Shown: piece by piece, positions 1 through 21,306 of the stretch
Layout: each line of letters opens with the position of its first letter
Numbering within the stretch: the first letter of the stretch is position 1
Assembly (NCBI GenBank): GCA_040757115.1
Contig: JBFLYA010000041.1
Span: 1 to 23,317 of the forward strand
Reading direction: 5' to 3'
DNA length: 23,317 nucleotides
Source of the DNA: a bacterium
GTDB lineage: Bacteria > UBA9089 > CG2-30-40-21 > SBAY01
Position numbers and translations under genes: made by a program
The notes under the pieces: model-generated
Seen by the model: the letters and a program-made list of their open reading frames with translations, nothing else
Database searches by the model: none
What the model was told of the DNA's origin: nothing

Positions 1-124
1 TTTTCCACAATCAATTTCTACCTATTTCTATAAATTTCAATCTATTTCTATTATCTTATCTCCATATCACTCTTATCTCCTTATCCCCTTTCTTACACTT
101 TTGATATATAGCCTGAACGGTTAC
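1..124. repeat. Right part of a MITE-like element (family C end) with word-repeat arm
   Basis: The first 90 bases are iterations of pyrimidine-rich words (atttctacct/atttctataa, then tatctcc/ttatctcc), which look like one arm of a hairpin whose other arm is left of the window. The stretch ends in CTGAACGGTTAC at 113-124, the same terminus seen at 18381-18392 and, as an 11-base end, at 12020-12257. The subterminal bases (ttacactt..tatagcc) also match the copy near 18361-18380. The left end and target duplication lie outside the window. No gene is seen in 1-148. Confidence 0.5.
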
Positions 125-148
125 ATTATTTTTATTACCCGCAAGTTT

Positions 149-628
149 TTATTTAACCTTTACTTTTAAAATAAAAGTTGCAGTACCTGAAGGAGAAATT
201 TCAGGTATGCTCCATTTTACATGACTTACTGGTTGAACATTATCATTATCAAAGTTAGTTCCACCACCATCATGACAGTAAGTAATCGTTCCTGAACCAC
301 CTGCCTCGCCAAAGGTAGTATAAGAGGGGACAGCATCAATAAAGCTAATATCTGTAATAGAACTTGTCCCGAAATTAGTGGCAATAATGGTATAGGTAAT
401 CGTTCCCTCAGGTAAAATCTCAGTCTTATCTACCAATTTAACTAATTCTACCTGTGGCGATTCCAGTGGATGAGGAGATTTATGAGAGATTTGAGGCTTT
501 TGAGTAATAGCCTGTTGCTCTGTGACAATTTTACTATTGTTACTTGTATAACTAATCCAGGCTGCATGAGCACTTGATACCATAATTACTACTACCATCA
601 AACCCAATAATGGTTTCATCCTATTCAT
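149..628 (-). CDS. Small secreted DUF11-domain protein
   Basis: A 159-aa protein. It begins with a signal peptide (basic start MNRMKP, hydrophobic LLGLMVVVIMV, cleavage near SSAHAA). A polar linker follows, then one DUF11-type Ig-like domain over roughly the last 100 residues (VELVKLVDKTEILPEGTITY, a 'T..N.G' turn, and a closing 'SGTATFILKVKVK'). DUF11 domains occur in bacterial surface or exported proteins; the exact role is unknown. I prefer the ATG at 628 over the one at 637, because the Shine-Dalgarno sequence (aggag, 638-642 on this strand) abuts the first ATG but sits 9 nt before the second. The closest relative in the window is the last domain of the kelch protein at 3436-5598. A MITE-like element (652-1116) is inserted immediately upstream of the SD; without it this gene would start about 27 bp after the stop of the 555-aa gene, so it was probably the last gene of that operon. 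Confidence 0.8.
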   Translation of the reverse strand: MNRMKPLLGLMVVVIMVSSAHAAWISYTSNNSKIVTEQQAITQKPQISHKSPHPLESPQVELVKLVDKTEILPEGTITYTIIATNFGTSSITDISFIDAVPSYTTFGEAGGSGTITYCHDGGGTNFDNDNVQPVSHVKWSIPEISPSGTATFILKVKVK

Positions 629-651
629 AATTCTCATCTCCTAACGAAAAT

Positions 652-1116
652 TAGAGTTCTGCAAAACCAGGAAACTGTAGTTTTTAAGCGGGTATTTAAA
701 ACCTCTATTCTTATCAATTTCCTCCAAAGATCAAAATGCAAAAAGCAAATATAAAAATTACATATCAAAATGTAAAATTATCTCTTTCCTTTCAGCGTTA
801 AAATAGAAGTCCTTTTGGGACGGTTCACTTTTGTTTGAAAGCTTGCGGTTAGAAAATGAAGTTAAAATTGGAAATTCGAAATTAGAAATTAGGGAAGGAA
901 GTAAAAGCCCAATTTCTAATTTCCAATTTCAACTTTCTGTGAACGCTTACAAGTGACATTCGAAAGAAATCATAGGAAAAACGATAAAAGGAACCGTCCC
1001 GTCCTTTTTGAAATTTGATTTGTAATTTTGCATTTTGATATTTATATTTGATATTTGATATTTAATATTTGATATTTATTTGTTGTCTCCCCCAAATCCT
1101 ATTTTGCAGAACCCTA
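652..1116. mobile_element. MITE-like element A1, 465 bp, with 9-bp target duplication
   Basis: The ends are TAGAGTTCTGCAAAA (652-666) and TTTTGCAGAACCCTA (1102-1116), inverted with one mismatch. The element is flanked by identical 9-mers AACGAAAAT at 643-651 and 1117-1125. There is no ORF. The interior has an arm of caaaatgcaaaa/aaatataaa words (about 729-782) opposed by a run of 'atatttgatatttgat' words (about 1010-1080), with element B1 inserted between them. A second copy of its right half lies at 12270-12384, and a shared internal block at 772-805 matches 11983-12016. Confidence 0.85.
817..1000. mobile_element. MITE-like element B1, 184 bp, nested in A1, with 8-bp target duplication
   Basis: Perfect 10-bp terminal inverted repeats GGGACGGTTC (817-826) and GAACCGTCCC (991-1000) are flanked by GTCCTTTT at 809-816 and 1001-1008. 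Removing the element and one 8-mer restores the gaagtcctttttgaaatt junction seen uninterrupted in A2 at about 12266-12283. The interior is a hairpin of gaaattagaaatt/aatttctaatttcc words (about 859-893 against 909-938). No coding capacity. Confidence 0.85.
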
Positions 1117-1138
1117 AACGAAAATACTAAAGACCAAA

Positions 1139-2806: not shown

Positions 2807-2823
2807 TCACAATTCAATAACCT

Positions 2824-3249
2824 CTATTCCTGCTTATACATATCCGCCATCCATTTACCTTCATGACCTGGGTTAGGGATAACACTTTGAGTTCTGGGGT
2901 CAACGACAAAATCAATGGCTTCTAAAAATAAATAGCCAATCAATGGTGGTGTAGTATCATCATTTTCCATCACTTCCATAACAAAACTGCGGTCTTTTAA
3001 TTCAATTTCAGCACCTTTAAATATCTTACGATTTGCTGGTCCATTAGCTGTTTTGATAGGGATGATATTATGAAATTGCAAGCCTAACCTTTCAATATCT
3101 ACTTTATTAATAGAGACATAAGTTGCACCTGTATCTACAATCGCCTCAATCTCTATGGTGCGAATCTGACTGCCTGGGATTATATTTTCACTTGCCTTAA
3201 CTACATCCCCATAATTCCTTATTATTATCTTCTCAGTTATTCGTCCCAT
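2824..3249 (-). CDS. Clan AA (retropepsin-like) aspartyl protease
   Basis: A 141-aa protein without a signal peptide, so probably cytoplasmic. The active-site motif is at residues 36-42 (AIVDTGA, catalytic Asp39), followed by the typical Y-V-S-I and a helix ending in R-L-G-L. The second half has the family's closing pattern: P-P-L-I-G-Y-L-F-L-E near 100-110, then 'DFVVDPRTQSVIPNPGHEG'. Length and motif order fit small single-domain bacterial retropepsin-like proteins, which dimerise to form the active site; their substrates are mostly unknown. It is the first gene of a likely operon with the 555-aa secreted protein (17-bp gap) and, originally, the DUF11 gene. The start ATG follows a purine-rich aagggaaaagaag leader. 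Confidence 0.8.
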   Translation of the reverse strand: MGRITEKIIIRNYGDVVKASENIIPGSQIRTIEIEAIVDTGATYVSINKVDIERLGLQFHNIIPIKTANGPANRKIFKGAEIELKDRSFVMEVMENDDTTPPLIGYLFLEAIDFVVDPRTQSVIPNPGHEGKWMADMYKQE

Positions 3250-3282
3250 TCTTCTTTTCCCTTTCTTCTAAAGATGGAAAAT

Positions 3283-3416
3283 AGGACGCAAGATTTTTCT
3301 TTGCAGATGAACAGGATTAAAATTAATTTTTGTTATTTCCTCAGTGTTTCTTAATGTTTTTAGTGCTTTAGTGATTTCTTCTTTAAAATCCTAAAAATCC
3401 TGTAAATCTGCGTCCT
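3283..3416. repeat. Word-repeat hairpin between kelch and protease genes
   Basis: The left arm (about 3283-3318, ggacgca...gcagatgaacaggatt) is the reverse complement of the right arm (about 3386-3416, aatcctgtaaatctgcgtcc) apart from a short interruption. The loop holds cagtgtttct/tagtgcttta-type words. No terminal duplications can be defined. It could act as a 3' mRNA structure for the kelch transcript. Confidence 0.6.
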
Positions 3417-3435
3417 AAAAAAAGTCTGCGGTCTT

Positions 3436-5598: not shown

Positions 5599-5700
5599 TT
5601 TATTCATCCTCCTGCTTTTTAATTAGTCCTCTCTTGAGAGGGCTAAAGAGTGTATCCCCTAATTGTTCAACCAAGGATGGTTAAATTACTTGATTAGGTT

Positions 5701-5729
5701 AATATATCACAATTGTCAAAATTTGTCAA
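5701..5729 (-). promoter_or_regulatory. Sigma-70-type promoter for the kelch gene
   Basis: On the minus strand, TTGACA (5724-5729) and TATATT (5701-5706) are separated by 17 bp. This is a near-consensus housekeeping promoter, giving a leader of about 95 nt before the SD and ATG at 5598. Confidence 0.75.
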
Positions 5730-5761
5730 GGAAAATTTTTTGATTTTTTTAAAACTTGGAA

Positions 5762-6135
5762 GGGGAGCGTTGCGTAGGACTTAAAGCTATATCTATGGTC
5801 CCAGGCATTGCTTTATCTCATTTTTTGCCATCTTTTTGTTTCTCTTGACATTTTGAACTACGAAATACGCGAAACACACGAAAGAGTCTGATTGACAAAT
5901 CTTTCATTCTTGAAAACTATCTGTTCTTTTCCCATTTTCGCGTCTTTTGCGTGTTTCGTAGTTTTTTCTCTCCGTGTTAAACTTTAATTATTTTTTTGAA
6001 GTTACAACTCTATAACACCTCCTCCTCTTGATGTCAACTAAGTAGATTACCTCTTTTTTATCACTTTGGCATCTTTTATCACCTAAAATTCTCCCCAACC
6101 CGCATCATAACTAAAAGTCATTTGCAACGCTCTCC
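5762..6135. mobile_element. MITE-like element H, 374 bp, with 6-bp target duplication
   Basis: The ends GGGGAGCGTTGC (5762-5773) and GCAACGCTCTCC (6124-6135) are inverted with one mismatch, and the similarity continues inward (aggactt against aagtcat). The flanking 6-mer TTGGAA occurs at 5756-5761 and 6136-6141. The interior has a word hairpin: gaactacgaaatacgcgaaa (about 5855-5884) against tttgcgtgtttcgtagtt (about 5935-5963). It fills most of the gap between the kelch and DUF2723 genes; no gene is visible in 5608-6178. Confidence 0.7.
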
Positions 6136-6178
6136 TTGGAAATGGATCAATACCGAGAGGTCTCTTTTTAGTCCCTTT

Positions 6179-8719
6179 TTACTTCCATGTAATATTCCTA
6201 CCACTTTCTAAAGATAATAACGCTTGACGAATATTATCTCGATTAGGATCTATTTCTAAAATCTTATTAAATATCATAGCAGTATTTTTTATCTCTCCCT
6301 TTTTATAATATGACTCAGCTAATTTATAATAATTATCCACATTATTAGGTGCTAATTTTATGGCCTTTTTAAATTCCTCAATTGCTTTGCCATATTCCAT
6401 ATTAAAAAGATAAACGCAGCCTAATTTTGCATACCCAGTGCTATCATTTGGGGCTAATTTAATTAGTTTTTTATAACAAATAATCGCTTTCTGATATTGG
6501 TGTAATGAAAGATATACCTCTCCAAGATTTAAATATCCAAGTACATCTGAAGGATTTAGATTAATAGATTTTTCAAAATTCTTAATAGATTGTTTCACAT
6601 TACCTTTTTTATACCATAAAACTCCTTCATTGGAATATATCTTGGCATAATTATTAAATAATTTTATAGTTCTATTAATGTCAAAAGTTATCCCATCATC
6701 AATAATCTCATCCTTTGTGCCTCTTATTTTAACTCTTAACTTATTTTTTATAAGATTATCAGATAATATATTTTTGTCTTTTTCATTCTCTACAATCTTC
6801 CACAAAAGACCACGTGGAATTAAGTGATAATCTTTTGCATATTGTTGAATAAAATCCTCCTCAAACAAAATATAGAATGGGACTTTTTTAAAATTATTTT
6901 TAACTATCTCATCCATTATCAGTTTTTTTAAGTTTTTATTTTTAATCCTTGATTTTAATTCCATAATCCTTTCTTTTAAAAGTTCAAATTTTAATTCAGA
7001 ATGTTTTTCCTTCATCTGATTAATATACCAATCATAATGTAAGAAAGTAACATCAATGAATAGTATATTGGGTTTACATTCCTCAACAAATTGGAGATAG
7101 AAAAGTGGGAAACTAGTTATATCTCCTTGAATAAAAGCTACCGTGTTTTCTTCTAATTGGGATATCATATTGTTTCCATAATCATAAGCAAAGTAGTATT
7201 GATGCCGATTAGCATATTGATAATTTGTAGTAAAAGGGAAAATTAAAAGAGCTAAGAATGTAAATGGAATGAAATAATCTATTTTAAAGAATAAGGAGTG
7301 AGGGATAGGATTAATTTTAAAAGTAGTTAGAGTAATCAATCTAACTATTCCTATAATTCCACAGCCATTAAATATAGCAAAGAGAGCAAAAGTCAAAATA
7401 TAATAATCTTCAATATTATAAATTGAATAACATGTAGCAGAAAGTATGTTCATTAGAATTATTAGTAACAAAAAGATAAAGAGATTTCTATTTATTATAA
7501 ACAAAGTTATTGCTCCAATAGGTCCAAGCCAAGTAAGATAAGGAGTAAACTGATGAGTGAAGAATTTACTTATATAAAATTTAAGTTTTTCTATTTGTTC
7601 CCTTATAGAGGGAGATTTCATATAATCTCTATAATCCCTGGCACTAATATGGTCAATAAACCTTTCTAATGTATCTGGATCATCCCAATTAATTGATGGG
7701 TTCATAGCAGCTCGAAGAGGAAGGTATAAGTAAAGGAATAACGGTAAGATGAATAATAGTAGCATTATTGAAATTGGCTTTAGAATTAATAATTTCCGAA
7801 GAATAGATTTCCAATAAAAGATATTCTTATGAATAAACTTTCTTTTTGAGGGTAAGTTTTCAGTTTTTTTTACTTTACTTGTTGAATACCTACTTATCCA
7901 CGCCTGCCAACTAATAATTAAGATTAAGTAGATAGTAGCTGGCACAAGATAGATAGTCTGAAAGTGGTGAGTAAAAGCAACACCTGCAATGAAAGAAAAT
8001 AAATAAAGTAGCCGGGGAGAAGGGGGAAGAGAGAAATTTTGGAGTAGATTATTTTCCCTTTTAACAACCTCTTGCCATTTAATCAGAATAAAGATTAAAA
8101 TAGTGGCAAAGAGGATATTAAGGGTATATTTTTCAGCAACTACAGCCTGAATCCAAAAAGTGGTAGCAAAGGCAAGCATAAGTGCAGATAGAGTAGCAGG
8201 AATTAAATGAGGAAGTGAGGAAGTGAAGGAGTGAATAAGTAATTGAATATTATGAGTTTTTTCCTCTCTCCATGTCTTTCTCACTTCATCACTCAAATTT
8301 CTTCCCACTTTTAATGTAATAAAGTAGACCATCATACACGCCAGCGAAGCACATAAGGCAGAAGCAAGATTCATACGATAAGCAATATTTCCAATGGGTA
8401 AAGTAGTTATCCATAGTTTTCCAAGTAAGCAATAAAATGGATAACCCGGAGGATGGGGGATACCTAAAACAAAAGCCGCAGTTACCATCTCTCCAGAATC
8501 ATGTAAACCAATAGTAGGGGTTAAGGTATGCAAGTATACCGCCCAGGAGATAAAAAATACCAATATCCCACCACCATAATCTATTGAAGTAAATGCCCTT
8601 GGAACAATTGGTTCATCTTTTGAAATGAGAAACTTTGGTATTCTAAACTGAACCTTCCACTCCCTCTTTTTCTGCCTTCTATCATCTGAAGTCTGTTTTT
8701 TTAACTTTTTCTTACCCAT
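6179..8719 (-). CDS. DUF2723 (TMEM260-like) GT-C membrane protein with C-terminal TPRs
   Basis: An 846-aa protein. A Lys-rich N-terminus is followed by about ten or more membrane segments. The DUF2723 signature is clear: H-D-S-G-E at 73-77, H-P-P-G-Y-P at 89-94, and 'WIQAVVAEKYTLN' in the next loops. DUF2723 is a GT-C-fold family whose animal member TMEM260 is a protein O-mannosyltransferase with the same arrangement of N-terminal membrane domain and C-terminal TPRs. Here about four TPRs occupy roughly residues 695-840. The bacterial substrate and sugar donor are unknown; transfer of a polyprenyl-linked sugar at the membrane is inferred. There is no SD: a TATAAT box ends 10 nt before the ATG, suggesting a leaderless or nearly leaderless mRNA. 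Two loops contain word-repeat stretches (see 8209-8295), which make loop inserts relative to the usual family layout. Confidence 0.82.
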   Translation of the reverse strand: MGKKKLKKQTSDDRRQKKREWKVQFRIPKFLISKDEPIVPRAFTSIDYGGGILVFFISWAVYLHTLTPTIGLHDSGEMVTAAFVLGIPHPPGYPFYCLLGKLWITTLPIGNIAYRMNLASALCASLACMMVYFITLKVGRNLSDEVRKTWREEKTHNIQLLIHSFTSSLPHLIPATLSALMLAFATTFWIQAVVAEKYTLNILFATILIFILIKWQEVVKRENNLLQNFSLPPSPRLLYLFSFIAGVAFTHHFQTIYLVPATIYLILIISWQAWISRYSTSKVKKTENLPSKRKFIHKNIFYWKSILRKLLILKPISIMLLLFILPLFLYLYLPLRAAMNPSINWDDPDTLERFIDHISARDYRDYMKSPSIREQIEKLKFYISKFFTHQFTPYLTWLGPIGAITLFIINRNLFIFLLLIILMNILSATCYSIYNIEDYYILTFALFAIFNGCGIIGIVRLITLTTFKINPIPHSLFFKIDYFIPFTFLALLIFPFTTNYQYANRHQYYFAYDYGNNMISQLEENTVAFIQGDITSFPLFYLQFVEECKPNILFIDVTFLHYDWYINQMKEKHSELKFELLKERIMELKSRIKNKNLKKLIMDEIVKNNFKKVPFYILFEEDFIQQYAKDYHLIPRGLLWKIVENEKDKNILSDNLIKNKLRVKIRGTKDEIIDDGITFDINRTIKLFNNYAKIYSNEGVLWYKKGNVKQSIKNFEKSINLNPSDVLGYLNLGEVYLSLHQYQKAIICYKKLIKLAPNDSTGYAKLGCVYLFNMEYGKAIEEFKKAIKLAPNNVDNYYKLAESYYKKGEIKNTAMIFNKILEIDPNRDNIRQALLSLESGRNITWK
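8209..8295. repeat. Word-repeat hairpin inside the DUF2723 coding sequence
   Basis: The plus strand reads gaggaagtgaggaagtgaag (from 8209) and is opposed by ctttctcacttcatcactc (about 8276-8294), an imperfect inverted repeat of the 'gaagtga' word. It encodes the loop 'THNIQLLIHSFTSSLPH' between two membrane segments and keeps the reading frame. Confidence 0.6.
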
Positions 8720-8729
8720 TTTACTACAT

Positions 8730-8757
8730 ATTATAGGACCCTTCCTTTAGAGATCAA
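8730..8757 (-). promoter_or_regulatory. Promoter giving a near-leaderless DUF2723 transcript
   Basis: On the minus strand, TTGATC (8752-8757) is separated by 16 bp from a perfect TATAAT (8730-8735). Only 10 nt separate the -10 box from the ATG at 8719, so transcription should start within a few bases of the start codon. No SD is present. Confidence 0.55.
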
Positions 8758-8836
8758 CTTAAACATCCCTTGGTTAAATAATTCTTTTGCTTTCTTCTTT
8801 GTGCTGATTTGTTAGCATAAATGTTTCATTTTAAAA

Positions 8837-9583
8837 TTACATAGCATATATCTTACCATTAAGTACTGCTGCTGCTAACCCATTCCGTGCAGTAGGCATA
8901 GGTGCTTTAGTCGACCAGGTGCCATTTGGACCGACACTCGGGTCAAATTCCTCTACTACATTTAATTTCTTACCTTCTTCTCCTTCTTCTCCCCCAATAG
9001 CATAAATCTTACCATTAAGTGTCGCGGCGGCTAAAGCCTCTCGTCCTGTCGGCATCGGTGCCTTAGTCGTCCAGATGCCATTAGGAGCAACTGTTGGGTC
9101 AAATTCCTCAACTACATTTAGAGCTCCACTTCCTCCAATCGCATAAATCTTACCATTAAGTGCAGCGGCTGCTAAAGATGATCGTCCCGTAGGCATAGGT
9201 GCCTTAGTCGTCCAGGTGCCATTTGGACCGACACCTGGGTCAAATTCCTCAACGACATTTGCACCTTCATATCCCCCAATCGCATAAATCTTACCATTAA
9301 GTGTCACGGCAGCTAAAATCCATCGTCCTGTCGGCATCGGTGCCTTAGTCGTCCATGTGCCGTTTGGTCCGATACCTGGGTCAAATTCCTCGACTACATT
9401 TATATTTGAAACTCCAAGTCCCCCAATAGCATATATTTTGCCATTAAGAGCGCCTGCTCCTAAACCATATCGTCCTGTCGGCATCGGTGCCTTAGTTTTC
9501 CATTCAAGGTCAAGAGCTAAAACTTGTGTAGCACATGCTAAATAAATACCAACTCCTATTAATCCTAAAACTTTTTTCATCAT
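8837..9583 (-). CDS. Secreted kelch protein, truncated in the fifth blade
   Basis: A 248-aa protein with signal peptide MMKKVLGLIGVGIYLACATQVLA, nearly the same as in the 3436-5598 kelch protein. Four complete kelch motifs are present (each N-G-K-I-Y-A-I-G-G ... V-V-E-E-F-D-P). The fifth stops abruptly in its core: N-G-K-I-Y-A-M then TAA, where the others have A-I-G-G. Four and a half blades should not close a standard propeller, and the additional modules of the larger paralogue are missing. The gene is therefore probably a 3'-truncated duplicate; whether it is still functional is doubtful. The SD (aggag) is 9-10 nt before the first ATG. It lies just downstream of the GT39 gene on the same strand. 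Confidence 0.8.
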   Translation of the reverse strand: MMKKVLGLIGVGIYLACATQVLALDLEWKTKAPMPTGRYGLGAGALNGKIYAIGGLGVSNINVVEEFDPGIGPNGTWTTKAPMPTGRWILAAVTLNGKIYAIGGYEGANVVEEFDPGVGPNGTWTTKAPMPTGRSSLAAAALNGKIYAIGGSGALNVVEEFDPTVAPNGIWTTKAPMPTGREALAAATLNGKIYAIGGEEGEEGKKLNVVEEFDPSVGPNGTWSTKAPMPTARNGLAAAVLNGKIYAM

Positions 9584-9614
9584 TTTTCTTTACTCCTTTT
9601 TTTTTATTTTTTGT

Positions 9615-9700
9615 AAGCGGATTAAGCGGATTATTTATCTGACAGCATTATGCGAATTGAAAATATCATTTTATCCGCTTTATCCGCTAAATCTGCTTAC
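9615..9700. repeat. Word-repeat hairpin in the leader of the truncated kelch gene
   Basis: gtaagcggattaagcggatt (about 9614-9633) is opposed by atccgctttatccgctaaat...gcttac (about 9673-9700). The word is 'agcggatta' and its complement. It lies between the possible promoter and the start codon, so it would be transcribed into the 5' leader. Confidence 0.65.
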
Positions 9701-9703
9701 TAA

Positions 9704-9732
9704 AGATTACTATAATTTTCTTATTTTGTCAA
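9704..9732 (-). promoter_or_regulatory. Possible promoter for the truncated kelch gene
   Basis: A perfect TTGACA lies on the minus strand at 9727-9732. The -10 region at 17-bp spacing is TAATCT (9704-9709), a poor match. The context (just after the GT39 stop) is reasonable but the call is weak. Confidence 0.35.
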
Positions 9733-9741
9733 CAAAAAATT

Positions 9742-11631
9742 TTAAATTATTTTTTCCTTTGTCTTTATTTCTAATCCCATTTGATACTCACCTTTAATCT
9801 TCACCCAATCTTTACCGTTATTCTCGGAAAAATAGGACCGACCATAAATATGAAAGGTGTCGATAGGAAGAGAGAGAATTGCCCCATTAATCATTTTTAA
9901 TGTAATTATATTTAGTCCCTTTTTTAAAATATAAGAAGCGATTTTAATTTTGAAGCTGTTAATTGTTCCAAATTGATAAAAATTAGCACATGATATGGGA
10001 GGAGAAGATATCCCATTAATATTTATTATAAATCCCCCGATATTTCTTTCAACCATATAAGTCATGACAAAATTAATATCTTCTGCTGATGAAATATCCC
10101 TATTAATAATCAGTTCTTTTTTTATCATCATAGAATTACCTTCTAAAGTAATTACATTACCTTCCCGCCAACTTTCGTAACCTAAATTACCACAATCTTT
10201 AATGATTAAACATTCTTCTTTTTCAGTATATACTCCATTGGGATTAGTAAAACAAACACATAATCCATAAATACGCTCTGCATATGTAAGAACAGAACAT
10301 AGAAATAATAGAATTAAGGAAAGAAGGATAGGTTTATAATATTTTAGACGAAACTTTTCATACCAAAAATACAATAGAAATCCAGTAAAAATTGCCATGA
10401 TAGGTAATACCGGTGGGCGATATCTTTCTATAACTACAAATAAAATGACAGAAAAACTATAAGCAAATATAAAACCATAAAGCAATAAAGATTTCTTCCA
10501 GGATTTTAAAGAAAAAAATATACCTGTAAGTCCTAATATGAAAAAAATATCGAAACTAATTATTATAGGTAGTCTTAATAAAGAAGAATATATTTTACCT
10601 TGTTCATAATGTGTTTGATGTGGAACTCCCCATTTACTTACCAATAATAAAAACTTTTTAAGTTGTAATTTTATGAACTTTACAGGCTCTCTTTTTACAA
10701 AATCTAAAACATCTGCTACATAAAGCTCTTTTCCCTCTTTTTTCATCCTTTCCTGCAGGTTATTTAAATAAGGTTGACACAGGTCAAATGAAGCGTTTGC
10801 ATGCTCATTATTACCTATCCAAAATTGAAATCCGCCAGCCGTGGTAAGTAAAATAAATTTCCCACCATAAATACAATTCCTAATAGTAACAGGTGAGATA
10901 GTAATAAAAAAGGCTAATAATACAATCGCATATTTAGTGATGACCTCTTTCTTAGGTATTTTGTAGGTAATAAGCATCCATATCAAGATAAATGGAAGAA
11001 AGATAATTACATTAGGCTGGGAAAGAGTAGCTAATCCTAAACATACTGCTCCCAAAACAAGATTTTTTGTTATCCCTTCTTCCTTACCTCTGAGAAAGAA
11101 AAATAAAGATGCACAACTAAAAAATGTAGTTAAAGCAGTAGATAAAAGCACCCCTTCATAAAATATCAATGTGCCACATACAGCACAAAGTAATGCCCCG
11201 ATCATACCAATAGGTTTATTAAAAAGTTGCTTGCCAATAAGATAAGTCAAAAGACAGGTAATAACTCCAAGGATGAATTGAATTACCCTTGGGAAGATTA
11301 AGTTATAACCAGAGATAAGATAGCATAAGGACAGGAAATAGTAATACAAAGGATTATAACCAAAAGGTGTTTTCGGGAAAGTTCCCTCAAGTATTTCTTT
11401 AGCCGCAGTAACATACATATATGTATCATCACCTGCGTGTGGGGCAAAAAAGTACGGGTCATTATTCTTTAATTGAAAAATATATACCAGTCGTAGAAGA
11501 ATACCTACTAAGAGAATACCACCTACCAGAACATATTCCTTTTTAACCAATTTAACTAACTCAAAAGAAATCCCTCTTTTAATATTTTTAGTCTCATTAT
11601 TTTTTTTACCCTTCTTTTTCTTCTTAGCCAT
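9742..11631 (-). CDS. GT39/PMT-like membrane glycosyltransferase
   Basis: A 629-aa protein. A Lys-rich start is followed by a first membrane segment (about 33-52), then the acidic loop G-D-D-T-Y-M-Y at 67-73 and 'TPFGYNPLYYYFLSL' (88-102). This is the layout of the PMT_2/GT39 glycosyltransferases (ArnT-like GT-C fold), where acidic residues of the first external loop are catalytic. About ten to twelve membrane helices run to about residue 450. The last 170 residues form a soluble, beta-rich, probably periplasmic domain containing 'GLNIITLKMINGAILSLPID'. The family moves sugars from polyprenyl phosphate to protein or lipid; the acceptor here is unknown. Neighbouring DUF2723 and Wzy_C-type genes suggest a shared glycosylation role. 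A weak SD (aaaggtaa, 11641-11648 on this strand) touches a family C element end, and an insertion there may have displaced the original promoter. Confidence 0.78.
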   Translation of the reverse strand: MAKKKKKGKKNNETKNIKRGISFELVKLVKKEYVLVGGILLVGILLRLVYIFQLKNNDPYFFAPHAGDDTYMYVTAAKEILEGTFPKTPFGYNPLYYYFLSLCYLISGYNLIFPRVIQFILGVITCLLTYLIGKQLFNKPIGMIGALLCAVCGTLIFYEGVLLSTALTTFFSCASLFFFLRGKEEGITKNLVLGAVCLGLATLSQPNVIIFLPFILIWMLITYKIPKKEVITKYAIVLLAFFITISPVTIRNCIYGGKFILLTTAGGFQFWIGNNEHANASFDLCQPYLNNLQERMKKEGKELYVADVLDFVKREPVKFIKLQLKKFLLLVSKWGVPHQTHYEQGKIYSSLLRLPIIISFDIFFILGLTGIFFSLKSWKKSLLLYGFIFAYSFSVILFVVIERYRPPVLPIMAIFTGFLLYFWYEKFRLKYYKPILLSLILLFLCSVLTYAERIYGLCVCFTNPNGVYTEKEECLIIKDCGNLGYESWREGNVITLEGNSMMIKKELIINRDISSAEDINFVMTYMVERNIGGFIININGISSPPISCANFYQFGTINSFKIKIASYILKKGLNIITLKMINGAILSLPIDTFHIYGRSYFSENNGKDWVKIKGEYQMGLEIKTKEKII

Positions 11632-11648
11632 TTTTTTGAATTACCTTT

Positions 11649-11660
11649 GTAACTATTCAG
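11649..11660. repeat. Solo family C terminus
   Basis: GTAACTATTCAG matches the left end GTAACTGTTCAG of C1 with one difference. The partner end was not found nearby. It begins directly next to the SD of the GT39 gene. Confidence 0.4.
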
Positions 11661-11712
11661 CCACAGATAAACACGGATGAAACACTGAAAATTCGTGACC
11701 TGAAAATAGTTT

Positions 11713-11786
11713 TTTCACGCAAAGGACGCAAAGGTAATTTTTACCCTTATTTTCCTTTGCGTTCTTTGCGTGCTTGGCGTGAAACT
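11713..11786. repeat. Word-repeat hairpin (cgcaaag words)
   Basis: tttcacgcaaaggacgcaaa (about 11713-11732) is opposed by tttgcgttctttgcgtgctt and ggcgtgaaa (about 11756-11786). The arms are two to three copies of a nine-base word. Its translation looks like a short Lys/His-rich protein, but that is a by-product of the repeat. Confidence 0.7.
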
Positions 11787-11875
11787 TCTCCTGAAAATAT
11801 CGGTGGTGTCTGAAAATAACTCTAATAGTGAAATCTATGCAGATTTGGTGTCCAAAAGGGATTTCATCCAAAAGA

Positions 11876-12384
11876 GCAAAATGCAAAACTCGTTTATAGT
11901 TTATGGTTTATAGTTTATGGTTTATAGTCCTTCAACTATAACCTATCTACTATCAACTATAAACTATCTTTGCCAAAGTTCAGTAAAATTATCTCTTTCC
12001 TTTCAGCGTTAAAATACTTGTAACTGTTCAGATAGTAATTCACCGCAGAGACGCAGAGAAACAGAAAGGAAAATATCTTTTTTTTCGTGTTTTTCGGTGT
12101 TTAAAAAAGTTTAAAAACAGTTAGGTGAAAGTAAGTATTAAAAGATTAATAAACAACGAAAGACCCGAAATGCACAAAAAAAGGAAATTTCTGTCTCTGG
12201 TGAATAGATTTTAATTTTTTCTCTGCGTCTCTGTGGCATCTTGCGGTGAACGGTTACAAATACTTGAAGTCCTTTTTGAAATTTGATTTGTAATTTTGCA
12301 TTTTGATATTTATATTTGATATTTAATATCTGATATTTAATATTTATTTGTTGTCTCCCTCAAATCCTATTTTGCAGAACCCTA
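11876..12384. mobile_element. MITE-like element A2 nested in D1 (left end uncertain)
   Basis: The right end TTTTGCAGAACCCTA (12370-12384) and the preceding roughly 110 bases match A1 closely, as does the internal block 11983-12016. The left end is only approximate (a 'tgcaaaac' near 11882). The left interior differs from A1: here it is a hairpin of gtttatagtttatgg words (11893-11930) against ctatcaactataaac (about 11953-11967). The target duplication was not recovered. Confidence 0.55.
12020..12257. mobile_element. MITE-like element C1, 238 bp, nested in A2, with 8-bp target duplication
   Basis: The ends GTAACTGTTCA (12020-12030) and TGAACGGTTAC (12247-12257) are inverted with one mismatch and flanked by AAATACTT at 12012-12019 and 12258-12265. 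The interior is a word hairpin: caccgcagagacgcagagaa (12041-12060) against ttctctgcgtctctgtgg (about 12218-12236), with a second nested pair (tcgtgtttttcggtg against cgaaagacccgaaatgcac). No coding capacity. Confidence 0.82.
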
Positions 12385-12547
12385 TACACTATTTTAACCT
12401 TTATGCTAGATTAAGACACCACCAAAAATTCAGGGAGTGAAGTTTTGAGGATGGTTTCCCAAATGTCGCTAATTTCCTGCATAAATAGAGTCTATAGTCT
12501 TGTGTCTGATGTCCAGTGTCTAAATCACACCCCAGATAATTATTGTA

Positions 12548-12577
12548 TTGACTTTGTATACAAAAGTATGTTATACT
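12548..12577 (+). promoter_or_regulatory. Promoter giving a near-leaderless ligase-1 transcript
   Basis: TTGACT (12548-12553) and TATACT (12572-12577) are separated by 18 bp. The -10 box ends 9 nt before the ATG at 12587, and no SD is present. The in-frame TTG at 12548 is the -35 box itself, not a start codon. Confidence 0.65.
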
Positions 12578-12586
12578 AAAAACACA

Positions 12587-14860
12587 ATGAATCTCTCAAA
12601 TTTCTTAAAGATAGGTAGCGAATATTGTGATAAAGCAATAATCTGGATTGTGTTTTTAATGATTTTAATCATTCCACTTATCTTTGACCCACACATAACC
12701 AGTTTTGATTTAGCCAAAGTAACCGCCATGCGGATATTAACCCTTGTTATTATTGGACTTTGGTTATTAAAACTCACCTTTTTCGCTCAAGAATATCAAT
12801 TCATAAAAACACCACTTGACCTGCCAATTCTTGCCTTTTTAATTATAAGCATAGCCGCCACAATAACCGGGATTCATCCAATAATGAGTTTGGTCGGCGA
12901 ATATAAAAGATACGATGGATTAATTAGCACCATTAATTACATATTTATCTACTATATTGCGGTTAATTTCTTAAGACAACGCAAATATCTTAAAAGAACT
13001 GTTGCTGTTATTAGTTTTGCTGGGGTTTTAGTGGCTGGTTGTGGGATATTGCAATCTTATGGAATTGATTTAACCAGATGGGAGTCAGGGATAATCTCGA
13101 CAATGGGCAATCCTAATTTCTTAGGGGGCTATTTAGCCATAGTCTTTTTTCTCCCTTTAACTTTATTTTTCCTTGTATCTTCAAAAAAGATTGGAAATCC
13201 AAAATCCCAAATTCCCAAAAGTCAAGTAATGAAAATCATCTTTTTAGGGATTTCTTTAGTCAGTCTCCTCTTAATTTATAAATGCTTTTCTTTACTTGCA
13301 CATCGAGGAGGAGCACTGGGACTTGGTGCCGGCATACTTTTGTTTGGAATCCTATTGGCAAAACAATTTCTTAAAAATAAGATGAGGACGATAGTGATTT
13401 TAAGCGTGATGTGTCTGGCAACAATCTTATTTTTTATCAAAGGGCAGTCAGGTTTAGTTCAAAAATTTACCTCAACCATTGCCGTAGAAAAAGAAGAAGG
13501 CAAGGCAATCCCAACTCTAAAATTTACCTCAACGGCTGAAACAAGATTCTATATCTGGCAGACAGGATTGGAGATTATAAAAAAATATCCTTTGTTAGGA
13601 GTAGGTCCGGATGCTTTAAGGATGGCTTCAACTCAATGTGAGAAGATTGAATTTATTCGCACCGAAGGAGGAAGAAATTGCCTGATTGATAAGGCTCATA
13701 TGGAAGTGTTAGATATGGCTATAACTCGTGGGTTATTAGGTTTAGCCGCTTACTTCTGGATTATAATTTTACTATTTGTAGTTGTATATAAAACCTATTC
13801 CTCAATTAAAGAAGAAAACAGGATTTTATTAGTCGGGGTCTTATCGGCTGTGCTTTCTTATCTTGTTCAGAATGAGGTTGGTTTTGGAATTATCGCGACT
13901 TCTTCCTTATTCTGGTTATTATTAGGAATGGCAATACCAATAGCCATACCCAAACCTCAATTCACAAAGCCCTTTAAACTGCACATTCTTCCCCGTATTA
14001 TCATTTGTTTCCCTTTATTGATATTAATTTATTATCTCATCTCATTATCGTTACGACCATATATTGCGGATATTTATTATAAAAATGGGTTGGCGATGAT
14101 TTCACAGGGTAATATTGACCAGGCGATTGCCAGTTATGACCGTGCATTAGGATATAATCCGTTGGAAGAATTTTATTATGGTGAGGTTTTAAATGCCTAT
14201 GATATGAAATTTAAACAAACTCAAGATATAGTCTGGTTAGATAAACTTATAGCTAAAGGGGAAGAGGCAGTCAGATGTAATCCTCTTCACGCATATTATT
14301 ACAATCTTTTAAGTGCGGTTTATGGAGAGAAATATGTTCGGGGAGACCCAACTTACGCCGAGAAATCAATTGAGGCTTCTAAAAAGGCACTTAAATGTAA
14401 ACCTCTATTTGCTGACCCATACAATAATATCGCCGCAATTTATGTTCGTCAGGAAAGATATGATGAAGCGATAAAAGAAATGGAGCAAGCCTCCCAACTT
14501 TTCCCCGATGACCCTAATTATCTCCGAATTTTAGGTGAACTATACCAGGTGAAAGCTCAGACAAATAAGGCAATAGACTTATTGAAAAAGGCGATTGAAT
14601 ATAATCCGCAAAATCCAGACCCTTATGCCAAACTGGGTAAGATTTACTTTGACCAAAAAAGATATAAAGAGGCAGAAACCCAGTTTAAAAAGGCAATCTC
14701 GTTAGATGCAAAAAATATCTTTGCCCGTAATAACTTAGGCACGATTTATATTAATCAACAGAGATTTAAAGAAGCAAGGTCTGAATTTGAGGCAGTCTTA
14801 AATGTTGCGCCAGGGGAAAATTATGCTCTGCAAATGCTGGCAATGATTAAAGGACACTAA
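12587..14860 (+). CDS. O-antigen ligase-like (Wzy_C) membrane protein with TPR tail, paralogue 1
   Basis: A 757-aa protein from the ATG at 12587 (see promoter). About twelve membrane segments cover residues 1-500. The Wzy_C/WaaL region contains H-R-G-G-A-L-G-L-G at about 242-250, the conserved 'TRFYIWQTGLEIIKKYPLLG' then VGPD, and after a loop 'AHMEVLDMAITRGLLGL'. The tail from about 515 to the end has several TPRs (for example 'NPLHAYYYNLLSAVYG', 'ERYDEAIKEMEQASQLFPDD', 'NPDPYAKLGKIYFDQKRYKE'). The family joins or polymerises polyprenyl-linked glycans in the periplasm, onto lipid A, other glycans or, in the PglL/PilO group, proteins; which applies here cannot be decided. Just before a membrane segment, 'KKIGNPKSQIPKSQVMK' is encoded by aatccaaaatcccaaattcc-type word repeats. 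The next gene is a tandem paralogue. Confidence 0.82.
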   Translation: MNLSNFLKIGSEYCDKAIIWIVFLMILIIPLIFDPHITSFDLAKVTAMRILTLVIIGLWLLKLTFFAQEYQFIKTPLDLPILAFLIISIAATITGIHPIMSLVGEYKRYDGLISTINYIFIYYIAVNFLRQRKYLKRTVAVISFAGVLVAGCGILQSYGIDLTRWESGIISTMGNPNFLGGYLAIVFFLPLTLFFLVSSKKIGNPKSQIPKSQVMKIIFLGISLVSLLLIYKCFSLLAHRGGALGLGAGILLFGILLAKQFLKNKMRTIVILSVMCLATILFFIKGQSGLVQKFTSTIAVEKEEGKAIPTLKFTSTAETRFYIWQTGLEIIKKYPLLGVGPDALRMASTQCEKIEFIRTEGGRNCLIDKAHMEVLDMAITRGLLGLAAYFWIIILLFVVVYKTYSSIKEENRILLVGVLSAVLSYLVQNEVGFGIIATSSLFWLLLGMAIPIAIPKPQFTKPFKLHILPRIIICFPLLILIYYLISLSLRPYIADIYYKNGLAMISQGNIDQAIASYDRALGYNPLEEFYYGEVLNAYDMKFKQTQDIVWLDKLIAKGEEAVRCNPLHAYYYNLLSAVYGEKYVRGDPTYAEKSIEASKKALKCKPLFADPYNNIAAIYVRQERYDEAIKEMEQASQLFPDDPNYLRILGELYQVKAQTNKAIDLLKKAIEYNPQNPDPYAKLGKIYFDQKRYKEAETQFKKAISLDAKNIFARNNLGTIYINQQRFKEARSEFEAVLNVAPGENYALQMLAMIKGH

Positions 14861-14866
14861 ATTTCA

Positions 14867-15066
14867 GGTGGTGTCTGAAAATAACGCTAATAGTGAAATC
14901 TATGCAGATTTGGTGTAAAAAAGGGGATAAGGAGATAAAGGGAGATATGGAGATTATTCATTGTAATTTCCAAAATTTTAGAATGAATTTATCTCCTTAT
15001 CTCCATAATCCCCATATCTCCTTTTCTTACACTATTTCAACCTTTATGCTAGATTAAGACACCACC
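14867..15066. mobile_element. MITE-like element D2, 200 bp, with 8-bp target duplication at a stop codon
   Basis: Perfect 10-bp ends GGTGGTGTCT (14867-14876) and AGACACCACC (15057-15066) are flanked by AAATTTCA at 14859-14866 and 15067-15074. The left duplication overlaps the last two bases of the TAA stop of the upstream gene. The interior is a hairpin of ggagataaggagataa words (14922-14953) against ttatctccttatctcc (about 14990-15023). Without it the two ligase-like genes would be about 30 bp apart. Confidence 0.88.
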
Positions 15067-15101
15067 AAATTTCACCGTTTTTATAGTCAAGGAGTTAAAT
15101 G

Positions 15102-17420: not shown

Positions 17421-17471
17421 CAGAAAAAATAATACTCGATGTTCAAGTTTTTTAAAGATATAAAGATTTAA

Positions 17472-17514
17472 CCGCAAAGAGCGCAAAGGAAGATTTCGCA
17501 AAGGACGCAAAGAA
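17472..17514. repeat. One-armed cgcaaag word array
   Basis: Four irregular copies of a cgcaaag(g/a) word follow 'taacc' without an opposing arm nearby. The same word makes the hairpins at 11713-11786 and 20287-20355. A short gggacgg...gggttcagg stretch follows (17526-17544) and may be a decayed element end. Confidence 0.55.
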
Positions 17515-17647
17515 AGGGAAATTACGGGACGGGGAAGGGTTCAGGTAGGATAAAAATAAGGAGAAAGGGAGAAGATGGAGAAGTGGAGAAAAGAAGAGTT
17601 AACTGATAGGATTATTAATGCCTGTATTAATGTCCATCAAAAGTTAG

Positions 17648-17822
17648 TGTCGTGTTGAACAAATAACGCACGGAATTCGATTCTGGTAACTGGTGATTGG
17701 TAACTGGTAATTAAATACCGTTTGGCTGATCTCAGGACGAAACTATTTAACCAGTTACCAATTATCCGTTTACAGGTTATGGGATCTGATGATACGCCGT
17801 GCAAAACTTACTCAACACCACA
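17648..17822. mobile_element. MITE-like element F, 175 bp, 26-bp ends, TTAG duplication
   Basis: The left end (17648-17673) begins TGTCGTGTTGAACAA and the right end (17797-17822) reads, reversed, TGTGGTGTTGAGTAA; both end inward in GCACGG, with about 19 of 26 positions identical. It is flanked by TTAG at 17644-17647 and 17823-17826. The interior hairpin uses ggtaactggtgattggtaac words (17684-17711) against aaccagttaccaattatcc (about 17750-17768). The insertion is confirmed by exact restoration of the interrupted GxxExxY gene. Confidence 0.88.
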
Positions 17823-17965
17823 TTAGGACCTGGTTTTCTGGAGAGCATCTATCACAATGCCTTGAGGGTTGAGTTTGCAAGACAGAACATTATCTTTGAA
17901 TCAGAAAAAGAAGTCAAGATATTCTATCAAGGTGTTGAGGTTGGGATTCATAGACTTGATCTTTT

Positions 17966-18149
17966 CGACCTGTGCGGTTAAATGTAAAATGGATAATGTA
18001 AAATGAGAAATGTAAAATGAAAATGTATAACTGAAAGGTAATGAGTCTGGCGAAGTAGTAAAATTTCCCATTTTTCATTTCCTATTTTACATTTTACATT
18101 TATTTTTCCTTTGCGTCTCTGCGATGAATTAGTCTAATCGCACAGGTGG
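17966..18149. mobile_element. MITE-like element E, 184 bp, with 8-bp target duplication
   Basis: The ends CGACCTGTGCGGTTA (17966-17980) and TAATCGCACAGGTGGG (18134-18149) are inverted apart from two differences and one missing base. They are flanked by GATCTTTT at 17958-17965 and 18150-18157. The interior hairpin is aatgtaaaatggataatgta (17981-18028 region) against tattttacattttacattt (about 18083-18101). Excision in silico restores the GxxExxY reading frame. Confidence 0.88.
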
Positions 18150-18339
18150 GATCTTTTTGTTGAAGATGAGATTGTGGTAGAGATTAAAACTGTTGAGGAG
18201 AGAAGTGGGAAGTATTATAATCAGGTTAGATCATACATTAGAGCAGTGGATAAAGAAATTAGGGTTACTGGTAAATTTCGCAGACTCCAGGATTGATGTC
18301 CGAAGGGTGGAGCAAGAAAAAGTTTGAGCCAATTCTCCC

Positions 18340-18392
18340 TTTTCCCCATTTCTCCTTGTTTACACTTCTAATGTATAGCCCTGAACGGTTAC
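18340..18392. repeat. Right end of a family C-like element
   Basis: Word-like ctccctttt/ccccatttctcc runs are followed by tttacacttctaatgtatag and the terminus CTGAACGGTTAC (18381-18392), as at 1-124. A possible left partner is the ggttcagg plus aaggagaaagggagaa stretch at 17538-17572, but no target duplication supports it. After it come atccgttatatccgtctaat words and the SD of the next gene. Confidence 0.45.
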
Positions 18393-18467
18393 AAAAATCC
18401 GTTATATCCGTCTAATCCGATTACTAAAAAATTAAACTAATTAAACTAATGAGGAGGTAGATTTAAA

Positions 18468-19373
18468 ATGGGTAAAAGAAGTTTAAAGGAAAATTCAAGA
18501 GGAACAAGGATTAAGAAGATAATGTGTAGCATTGGGGTGATGTGTATCTTGCTGGGCAGTAGCACTATAGCCCAGGGTATAGAATGGCAGTGGCCATGGT
18601 TAAAAAGTAAGGAGCAAAAGACTAAGCAGGAAAAGGTGGTTAAAAAGAAAAATCTACCACTTAGAGCAAAACAAATCGGCACGCCGACTGTTCAGGCATT
18701 GGTGGATAAAGTCAAGGAGAATTACCAGAAGATTCAAGATTTGAAGGCAGAGATGGTAGTTACAGTAGAAAAAGTAGGAGGATGGGGGTACCCAATACTT
18801 ACAGATAAGATTACTAAGGCAGGAAAATATTACTTTAAAGCACCTGATAAAATTAAATATGAAGACCCAAAAGACCATGATAGAGATACTGTTTGGAAGG
18901 GATTAACTCAGTATGTTAGAGCTTATCATGGCTCAAATGTTCCAAGTACTAGAGAACCTTGGTATTCTCTTTTAGAGCCTGATAATCTATATTTCTACTG
19001 GCGGTTGGATGAGATAATGACTAAGTTTGATACGAAGGTGATTGATAATCCTCAACCTGATGTCTGGGTGATTGAGGCGGTGCCGAAAGATAGTAATCAT
19101 GAGGATGATTATAATTATCCATATTCAGATGGTAGATTGGAAGTTTTTGTTAATTATGATAAAGGCGTGATTACTAAAATTGATGTACACGGTATTACTC
19201 TTGGTTTGCTTTCTTCCCGAAGAGAATCCCAAGATTTTACATTAATTAATAATATTTGGATACCAACAAAATTTATTAGGACATCTTTTGGAGATAAAGA
19301 GGTAAAAGAAGAAATAACACTTAGCAATATACAGTTAAATACTGGTATTCCAGATAGCGAGTTTGAGTTTTAG
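18468..19373 (+). CDS. LolA-like exported protein, copy 1
   Basis: A 301-aa protein. A basic N-terminus and hydrophobic stretch (IMCSIGVMCILLGSSTIAQG, ending about residue 37) form a signal peptide. After a Lys-rich linker, residues about 70-300 have the LolA/LolB-like pattern: 'VQALVDKVKENYQKIQDLKA' helix, then K-Y-Y-F-K-A-P-D-K-I-K-Y, a long antiparallel sheet, and a closing 'LSNIQLNTGIPDSEFEF'. Proteins of this fold carry lipoproteins or lipids across the periplasm; the cargo here is unknown. AGGAGG lies about 11 nt before the ATG. A secreted lipase follows 55 bp downstream, and the same pair recurs at 20389-23112, so the two products probably act together. The linker before the domain and the N-terminal 70 residues are almost identical between the copies. 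Confidence 0.75.
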   Translation: MGKRSLKENSRGTRIKKIMCSIGVMCILLGSSTIAQGIEWQWPWLKSKEQKTKQEKVVKKKNLPLRAKQIGTPTVQALVDKVKENYQKIQDLKAEMVVTVEKVGGWGYPILTDKITKAGKYYFKAPDKIKYEDPKDHDRDTVWKGLTQYVRAYHGSNVPSTREPWYSLLEPDNLYFYWRLDEIMTKFDTKVIDNPQPDVWVIEAVPKDSNHEDDYNYPYSDGRLEVFVNYDKGVITKIDVHGITLGLLSSRRESQDFTLINNIWIPTKFIRTSFGDKEVKEEITLSNIQLNTGIPDSEFEF

Positions 19374-19374
19374 C

Positions 19375-19407
19375 AGGAGTAGAAAGTAGAGAGTAGAAAG
19401 TAGAAAG
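19375..19407 (+). repeat. Tandem agtagaaag words between LolA-like and lipase genes
   Basis: Four slightly different copies of agtagaaag/agtagagag lie between the TAG stop and the AAGGAGG of the lipase. There is no opposing arm; it is a single-armed example of the word repeats. Confidence 0.6.
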
Positions 19408-19428
19408 TTTTAAGGAGGTAAAATAATT

Positions 19429-20223
19429 ATGTTTAAAAGAGTTATAGCCTTATGTTTGGTAAGTAGTTTATTTTGGTTAAGTCCTGCTTTTGCTAAAAAT
19501 CCTGTGTTGATAGTTCATGGACTCAATGGAGATTCACAGAGTTTTAAAGATGGATGTATGGTAAAGACATTACAAAATGCAGGACTACAGGTGTTTACCT
19601 TAGCAGATGTAGGTGGTGATTTTCCTAATAGAGGACAAGGATTAATACAGGAAGATGTAAAATTGCTTAAACAAGCAATAGATGAAGTTAAGAGGCGAAC
19701 AGGAGCAACTAAAGTTGATATAGTAGCCCATTCAAGAGGTGGTATTGTAGCTGAACTTTATACGATGATGTATGGTAATCAGTATCAACCTACAATGGAA
19801 TATACATATCATCCACCTGAGGATCCTCGGCTATTAAAGAAGAAGACCATCACCAACATCCCCCGCTACGGCAATGATGTCAATCAAATCATTATGATGG
19901 GGACACCGCAGATGGGGAGTTTTTGGTCGGATTTTGGGCATGATAATCCTGTTCTTTCTGACCAACTTAGAAAACTTGGGATTGCTAAGGATGCACCTGA
20001 TCAATATACAGTAGGTGTAGAGCAATTGCAGGAAGAAGGTAGTGCCTTTATGGAATATTTCTGGAAGAATAAATTAAATTCAGACCTACCAACGATTACT
20101 TATATTAATTTAGCTGAGGATAGGATTTGCCCACCATTGTTTAAATAGGGTGATGGTGTAGTTACTTTTGATTCTGCCTGTGGGGTGGAATTACTTCAAC
20201 AATTGCTTTTTGGACGCAGATGA
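19429..20223 (+). pseudogene. Secreted lipase-like alpha/beta hydrolase, copy 1, decayed at the 3' end
   Basis: The 239-aa open part has a signal peptide (to about residue 22, FAK), the oxyanion H-G-L-N-G at 30-34, and the nucleophile elbow A-H-S-R-G-G at 100-105 (Ser102). It is collinear with the lipase at 21307-23112 up to 'INLAEDRI'. There seven codons (CPPLFK and TAG, 20128-20148) replace the two codons DN of the paralogue. After the TAG the frame continues with homologous G-D-G-V-V-T-F-D-S-A and V-E-L-L-Q-Q-L-L until cgcagatgaa word repeats begin at about 20209. The catalytic His region (V-H-H-T-N-L) and the Ig-like extension are missing. TAG ends other genes here, so it is a stop. The fold and active site are incomplete, so activity is unlikely. 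SD aaggagg is 11 nt upstream. Confidence 0.8.
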
Positions 20224-20355
20224 ACGCAGATGAACACAGATTTTAAAGAAAAAATCACTTGCATTTAAAGATAAACAGGTGTATACTTTCTTTGCGGCCT
20301 TTGCGCCTTGGCGTGAAAAAAAAAGAGACTCTCACGCAAAGACGCAAAGAGAAAG
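20211..20355. repeat. Word-repeat cluster: cgcagatgaa array and cgcaaag hairpin
   Basis: ggacgcagatgaacgcagat runs from 20211. A hairpin follows, ctttgcggcctttgcgcctt (about 20289-20310) against tcacgcaaagacgcaaagag (about 20332-20352). The cluster replaces the 3' end of lipase copy 1 and stops 16 bases before the SD of the next gene. Confidence 0.7.
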
Positions 20356-21282: not shown

Positions 21283-21306
21283 TTTAACTTTTTGGAGGTG
21301 ATAATT

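Follow-up and report, generated by a model that had tools for sequence, protein, structure and literature searches.

Short-word hairpins in a bacterial genome as probable arms of a widespread gene-in-a-hairpin element

Among described systems, the intervening sequences (IVSs) of 23S rRNA come close to the elements treated here: in Coxiella an S23 gene lies between complementary ends inside the 23S rRNA, and the sequence is excised by RNase III (PMC4990558). In this report we analyse contig 41 (JBFLYA010000041.1, 23,317 nucleotides; hereafter the window) of a 4.3-Mb bacterial genome (GCA_040757115.1), in which both arms of several hairpins consist of imperfect copies of a short word ("word hairpins"), and we relate these hairpins to two small genes, encoding GxxExxY proteins (PF13366/TIGR04256) and four-helix-bundle S23 proteins (PF05635/TIGR02436). 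The likeness to IVSs consists in an S23/four-helix-bundle gene between inverted complementary ends, in a unit that is small, scattered and thought to be selfish. IVSs sit in helices of the 23S rRNA, whereas the elements described here are intergenic, have arms built from iterated words and extend to a further protein family, GxxExxY, that is unrelated to S23; an S23 gene is present only in the four-helix-bundle elements.

According to the main-text passages of two reports (PMC4692102, PMC4679880), heptanucleotide arrays are degenerate, intergenic and of unknown origin, and they occur in Xanthomonas (GGGAATC), often as convergent inverted pairs, and also in Nostoc and Beggiatoaceae (TAACTGA); the same passages draw no link between these arrays and S23 genes. 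Judged from published descriptions, our elements resemble the cyanobacterial heptanucleotide repeats (short tandemly repeated repetitive sequences, STRRs) in having degenerate 7-nt intergenic arrays. In the open-access literature we found no paper linking genes or repeats named GxxExxY, PF13366, S23 or STRR with word arrays, and neither of the two papers found there to name GxxExxY studies its role. Repetitive extragenic palindromes (REPs) and their hairpin-forming doublets (REPINs), with the REP-associated tyrosine transposases (RAYTs), likewise combine numerous intergenic palindromes with a particular gene family; the genes considered here differ in not being Y1 transposases and in their position within the hairpin. 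One Y1-like gene flanked by hairpin sequence was seen, with no systematic search for such genes made.

Word hairpins and the genes between their arms

An earlier note, made from the letters of the window alone, had placed word hairpins at twelve sites, with words that vary from site to site; its positions were correct and the variation is borne out. Using a gapped inverted-repeat detector, eight hairpins were found at a score of ≥50 (starting at 859, 5856, 9606, 11716, 11883, 12043, 14913 and 17987) and none in five dinucleotide shuffles of the window. The hairpin at 17683-17775 was recovered by repeat search, and at 3283, 8209 and 20287 folding showed weaker gapped hairpins that are individually not significant. 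In a 778-kb sample (approximately 18% of the genome), on which the genomic hairpin counts are based (gene counts come from whole-genome family searches), there were 190 hairpins at a score of ≥42 compared to 5 in the locally shuffled control, and 84 of the 190 have an iterated word (period 6-14) in both arms (p<0.05 per arm). The window shuffles and the shuffled sample rule out a chance origin, and the word hairpins of the window are thus confirmed as real.

One site that bears only a cgcaaag hairpin in this genome has an ortholog in the sister genome whose loop contains a GxxExxY gene, and genes of both families were therefore tested for arms. This genome has 65 matches to PF13366 (GxxExxY, PDDEXK_3) and 26 to PF05635 (23S rRNA intervening sequence protein, four-helix bundle). 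Inverted arrays at a score of ≥45 bracket 35 of the 38 near-full genes of both families (random genomic pairs: median 28, 99th percentile 46), and the bracketing arms are almost all iterated words, those at L158, L191 and L194 being other inverted repeats. Moreover, GxxExxY loci from 80 species of many phyla, including archaea, have arms in 56 of 78 usable cases, compared to 0 of 65 at control positions 700-900 bp away. For the four-helix-bundle genes, arms were present at 18 of 24 further loci in the phylum, at 12 of 16 loci of cyanobacterial plasmids and, in 20 genomes from other phyla that were reached through GxxExxY loci, at 19 of 26, i.e. at 49 of 66 in total.

The association also holds when one starts from the arms. 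Scanned blindly for periodic inverted arms spaced by 250-900 bp, the sample yielded seven pairs, of which six enclose one of the two genes or a relative of the four-helix-bundle gene and the seventh a GxxExxY remnant. Among control open reading frames (ORFs), 6 of 132 have such flanks, and five of these six belong to or adjoin the two families. Hence the word hairpins are not free-standing palindromes: such arrays directly bracket GxxExxY or four-helix-bundle/S23 genes. The sole other gene type so flanked among the 132 control ORFs is a Y1 (REP-type) transposase-like gene with inverted-repeat flanks (L048:13555-13842).

The carried protein predicts the word length, with 7 nt (free words) for the four-helix bundle and 8-9 nt (mostly CRCRRAG) for GxxExxY. 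Specifically, period 7 was found in 25 of 37 four-helix-bundle arms and in 1 of 72 GxxExxY arms (p=1.5e-14), the latter being mostly of period 8-9, and CRCNRAG is present in both arms for 59/72 GxxExxY compared to 0/37 four-helix-bundle cases. In the further 20 genomes, four-helix-bundle arms have period 7 in 14 of 19 cases and period 8 in five. Period-7 arms of four-helix-bundle genes are also present, as degenerate tandem words in intergenic positions, on plasmids of Nostoc, Anabaena, Calothrix, Geminocystis and Pseudanabaena; unlike in the published heptamer descriptions, the 7-nt arrays here bracket four-helix-bundle genes, at the 12 of 16 plasmid loci given above. The similarity of proteins and that of their words show a moderate correlation within families, which relatedness alone could yield.

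We therefore favour, with a probability of roughly 80%, the explanation that the word hairpins derive from a widespread gene-in-a-hairpin element of approximately 0.4-0.7 kb, whose arms they represent and whose gene has in most cases been lost. The unit would consist of an inverted array of an iterated short word, a gene of about 120 codons and the same word array inverted, the gene slot being filled by either GxxExxY (8-9-nt words) or four-helix-bundle S23 (7-nt words). Deletion of the gene would leave solo hairpins, and we propose that the GxxExxY or four-helix-bundle protein acts on the folded arms.

Gene-less remnants and changes by whole words

The window itself has one such element with both arms present and its GxxExxY gene broken by two nested word-hairpin inserts, which correspond to two of the hairpin sites listed earlier. 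Its first piece (17535..17647, forward strand; left arm and gene start) is 98% identical to the intact element L160, and the left word arm (17554..17586, forward strand), which has the gene start inside it, pairs with the right word arm (18329..18361, reverse strand) at an inverted-repeat score of 57. The first insert (17648..17822, forward strand) appears as an alignment gap relative to L160, holds the ggtaactg hairpin at 17684-17768 and recurs at the same place in the paralogs L165-L168. It is followed by the middle piece of the gene (17823..17965, forward strand; 97% identical to L160, PF13366 E=3e-11) and by a second insert (17966..18149, forward strand), which holds the gtaaaatg hairpin at 17981-18101; this insert too is a gap in the alignment with L160, with an 8-bp overlap between the two sides. 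The last piece of the gene with the right flank (18150..18392, forward strand) is 96% identical to L160 and also matches PF13366.

Seven of the twelve window sites match gene arms, with scores of 49-88 (maximum for shuffled sites 42), and in the sample 105 of the 190 hairpins do so at ≥45, compared to approximately 6% of random stretches. The highest score belongs to the heptad hairpin gtttatag (11893..11967; 88, arms of the four-helix-bundle gene L184), which is likely to represent solo four-helix-bundle arms. The ggagataa core at 14922..15023 matches the arms of the GxxExxY genes L156/L159 without the gene (81); its arms can be aligned with L156/L158 as far as the start codon, located within the last word, and again from the stop codon on. 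The cgcagagac hairpin (12041..12236; gene-arm score 74) keeps the last codons and the stop of a GxxExxY gene, having aatagattttaattttttctctg in common with the 3' end of the L150 gene. Likely solo GxxExxY arms are also the hairpins cgcaaagga (11713..11786; hairpin score 52) and cgcaaag (20287..20355), which match the arms of the GxxExxY locus L216 at 60 and 55, respectively. A ggacgcag-type hairpin (3283..3416) matches the arms of the GxxExxY gene L155 (52) and is likely a remnant of a GxxExxY element; at this place the sister genome holds a different 540-bp composite. Finally, the gaaattag-type hairpin at 859..938 (score 61, none in shuffles) matches four-helix-bundle gene arms at 49. Most of the window hairpins are best read as gene-less remnants of gene-in-hairpin elements, and the cases above suggest that solo hairpins arise through gene loss.

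The five remaining sites are the two hairpins in the inserts and those at 5855..5963 (cgcgaaacacacgaaa; score 56, best gene-arm match 39, within the shuffled-site range), 8209..8295 (gaagtgag; a weak fold, in frame inside a coding gene) and 9615..9700 (agcggatta; score 50, best gene-arm match 37). The coding gene (6179-8719) is large and membrane-protein-like, with C-terminal tetratricopeptide-like repeats, and keeps the word-hairpin sequence in frame; its homologs in the sister genome (L108 and L104 in G001) have different in-frame sequence at the hairpin place, in one case with ggagcct-type words. A region of approximately 4.1 kb with two ORFs, one with kelch-like repeats (5614-9744), is absent from the orthologous place in the sister genome (L111:3944-3998). 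The hairpin at 20287-20355 stands between adjacent copies (18468-20148 and 20389-23112) of a gene pair, outer-membrane lipoprotein-like plus lipase-like, i.e. a tandem duplication.

Comparison with the sister genome, for which approximately 125 kb of shared sequence was covered, shows that arrays gain and lose whole words. In the hairpin at 11893-11967 the loop is two heptads further along in the sister genome with the total length unchanged, and a four-helix-bundle element shared by the two genomes has an almost identical gene between arms that differ, one by a single heptad and the other by 41 nt. We infer that whole-word slippage and copying between the arms account for these changes, for the differing in-frame sequence in the homologs of the coding gene and for the two arms of an element carrying one word; slippage together with template switching between arms would keep both on one word while the word drifts.

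Changes by whole words between orthologs, and different words at the same in-frame place of homologous genes, are also what one would expect if slippage and fold-back copying made bare palindromes grow out of a seed word, with no role for a gene and with the loop genes as coincidental insertions into convenient hairpins. Yet every one of the seven wide-spaced arm pairs from the blind scan encloses one of the two families or a remnant, which disfavours pure seed-word growth; moreover, the word period depends on the gene family, and the association between gene and arms holds across phyla. We consider this explanation improbable.

IS66-like carriers of the word cores

Most word hairpins in this genome are carried inside IS66-like miniature inverted-repeat transposable elements (MITEs), with GTAACCGTTCA ends and exact 8-bp target duplications. 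GTAA ends and 8-bp duplications are traits of IS66. Of 143 candidate pairs for elements bounded by GTAA[CG][CT][AG]TTCA, 51 have exact 8-bp duplications, compared to 0.1% expected from mismatched flanks, and whole elements are present or absent between the sister genomes with the 8-bp duplications GAAAAATA, TATTTTCC, GAAAATTA and ACTTTTCT. One locus (L353) is a decayed IS66 transposase gene between identical GTAACCGTTCAGGTA 15-bp ends, and the outer vehicle is therefore IS66-like; no intact source element was found. The carriers are thus like IS66-family MITEs in their GTAA ends, in the 8-bp duplications and in sharing their ends with the decayed transposase gene; the MITEs are the vehicle, whereas the word cores are varied cargo that occurs without such MITEs in other phyla.

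In the window, a GTAAC-ended IS66-like MITE (12020..12257) with the exact 8-bp duplication AAATACTT surrounds the cgcagagac hairpin, and the same element is found at the orthologous site L110:3575-3812. It lies within a GGTGGTGTCTG-ended element (11802..12423, forward strand) that also contains the A2 copy of a MITE-like family and the gtttatag hairpin, and that is common to the sister genome at the same place. The contig end cuts through a GTAAC-ended element built around ggagataa words, of which half is left (1..125, reverse strand); these 125 bp are 100% identical to the element at L043:4487-4723, which is flanked by an 8-bp duplication. A further GGTGGTGTCTG-ended MITE of 200 bp (14867..15066, forward strand) carries the ggagataa core described above and the 8-bp duplication AAATTTCA at 14859-14866 and 15067-15074. 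Opposite this element (14861-15088) the sister genome has approximately 785 bp resembling a nucleotidyltransferase-HEPN gene pair (L110:6380-7165). One GGTGGTGTCTG end, 98% identical over 54 bp, was seen in a genome from a different family within the phylum (L072; G009:C85:2915-2968), either through recent transfer or through misbinning.

The 200-bp GGTGGTGTCTG family, with approximately 25 near-full copies and one fixed ggagataa core, fits the view that these are ordinary MITEs with a fixed interior, in which the words are interior sequence inherited from old transposons and not independent entities, as does the insertion of whole elements with 8-bp duplications. Against it, the 51 duplication-bearing GTAAC elements, a single terminal-repeat family, hold at least eight different word cores, and some GGTGGTGTCTG copies have another interior or none. 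In addition, part of the ggagataa core recurs elsewhere in the phylum, in other genera and families, surrounded by sequence that does not match the GGTGGTGTCTG element, and GxxExxY and four-helix-bundle genes have arms in phyla where no such terminal repeats were seen. The fixed-interior view, very improbable in our estimate, is contradicted as the whole story and stays true for the copying of cores within this genome. For the gene-in-hairpin element, words and terminal repeats mix freely because most hairpins here ride inside IS66-like MITEs, whose transposition would copy the cores and mix words with terminal repeats. For the one coreless orthologous copy (L062 versus L149), we considered and rejected the view that an empty MITE had later received the ggagataa core, the junction CCGAA/CCAAA fitting hairpin deletion better than a site that was empty from the start.

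Taken as a whole, the interpretation in the earlier note is partly supported. It had described the word core as a module apart from the terminal repeats and had reported one terminal-repeat family with different words, and the many cores of the GTAAC elements bear out both; one fixed interior per terminal-repeat family, named there as speaking against modularity, holds only for part of the GGTGGTGTCTG family, so modularity survives. The orthologous comparison that it had suggested found both presence or absence of whole elements and word changes. The A1 and A2 copies do differ in their words, the cause being that different elements are nested in them (in A1, the hairpin at 859..938), and several, not all, of the seven MITE-like families said to carry cores were confirmed. 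A second mobile entity targeting MITEs had been put forward; a second entity exists, namely the gene with its word arms, whereas the clean insertions between sister genomes are all whole terminal-repeat elements with the core inside, which gives no support to the targeting of MITEs. Of the growth from a seed word by slippage or fold-back, the whole-word changes stand, and the bare palindrome gives way to a gene of about 120 codons bracketed by word arms.

The two proteins and the wider class of elements

Both families were confirmed by NCBIfam and Pfam (for GxxExxY, Pfam E=1e-46). In one set of GxxExxY proteins (set A1) aspartate 67, glutamate 77 and lysine 79, which are PD-(D/E)XK residues, are invariant; in another (set A2) D64 and K76 are invariant and E74 nearly so, and intact copies keep the D..ExK residues. 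The ratio of nonsynonymous to synonymous substitutions (dN/dS) is 0.09-0.12 for three paralog pairs, which as judged from the sequences indicates purifying selection on some close paralog pairs. The predicted GxxExxY model (mean predicted local distance difference test score, pLDDT, 94) has SSO0001 as its closest structure (Z 9.7 over 98 residues, root-mean-square deviation 3.4; next Z 7.7), which we take to be a Cas4 nuclease. The GxxExxY protein is thus a predicted minimal PD-(D/E)XK nuclease with a modelled fold closest to the Cas4-like SSO0001. A role as Holliday-junction resolvase was considered and rejected; such enzymes are among the structure matches, not at the top.

The four-helix-bundle protein is related to XCC0516, an S23 protein of Xanthomonas of known structure (2gsc), and Avd of diversity-generating retroelements is a distant sequence relative, with weak matches (DivGenRetAVD E=8e-6, bAvd E=6e-6), neither of which reaches its curated cut-off. 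At the four-helix-bundle loci neither a reverse transcriptase nor a variable-repeat pair turned up, no search aimed at them having been made. On cyanobacterial plasmids of two genera, four-helix-bundle elements with different words (L308 and L309) lie between cas6 and cas4 of CRISPR loci; the four-helix-bundle proteins are 41% identical compared to 65% for Cas4, and therefore separate insertions are likelier than one ortholog with changed words. The cas6-cas4 interval may be an insertion hot spot for these elements.

That the four-helix-bundle protein is of the S23 family of RNase III-excised sequences with complementary ends (PMC4990558) suggests a further explanation, in which the elements act at the RNA level like IVSs: the arms fold in the transcript, RNase III excises the element and the insertion is harmless to the host. 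However, the annotated cyanobacterial four-helix-bundle loci lie between protein-coding genes and not in a 23S rRNA helix, and this explanation accounts neither for the word periodicity nor for the nuclease family. We regard it as unlikely, and it could hold together with the gene-in-hairpin explanation.

Several observations weigh against the gene-in-hairpin element as the source of the hairpins. At the sensitivity used, arms are missing from roughly one in four genes outside this genome, and 85 of the 190 sampled hairpins match no known gene arm, which would also suit growth from a seed word; in the window, the sites at 5855, 8209, 9615, 17684 and 17981 match the sampled gene arms no better than chance. 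The unit of gene and arms was never seen to move by itself in the sister-genome comparison, where the clean insertions are those of the carriers. The direction, from gene-bearing to solo hairpin, rests on few cases, and other paralog pairs have dN/dS values of 0.25-0.9.

The broader form of the gene-in-hairpin explanation is tentative, at somewhat less than an even chance: that the elements form a pan-prokaryotic selfish class in which the protein family sets the word length, that the 7-nt and 8-9-nt intergenic arrays of many genomes are their footprints, and that a minimal Cas4-like nuclease or an S23-like protein drives their upkeep or movement via the word hairpins.

Descriptions of short-word arrays in cyanobacteria, Xanthomonas and giant sulphur bacteria go back decades, yet no account of their origin is accepted; gene-in-hairpin elements may explain the seven-base repeats of cyanobacteria. 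The tie between such arrays and two small genes, together with the word-length rule, makes this old puzzle testable in any genome and at the bench, and it provides a first context for two very common protein families, GxxExxY and the four-helix bundle.

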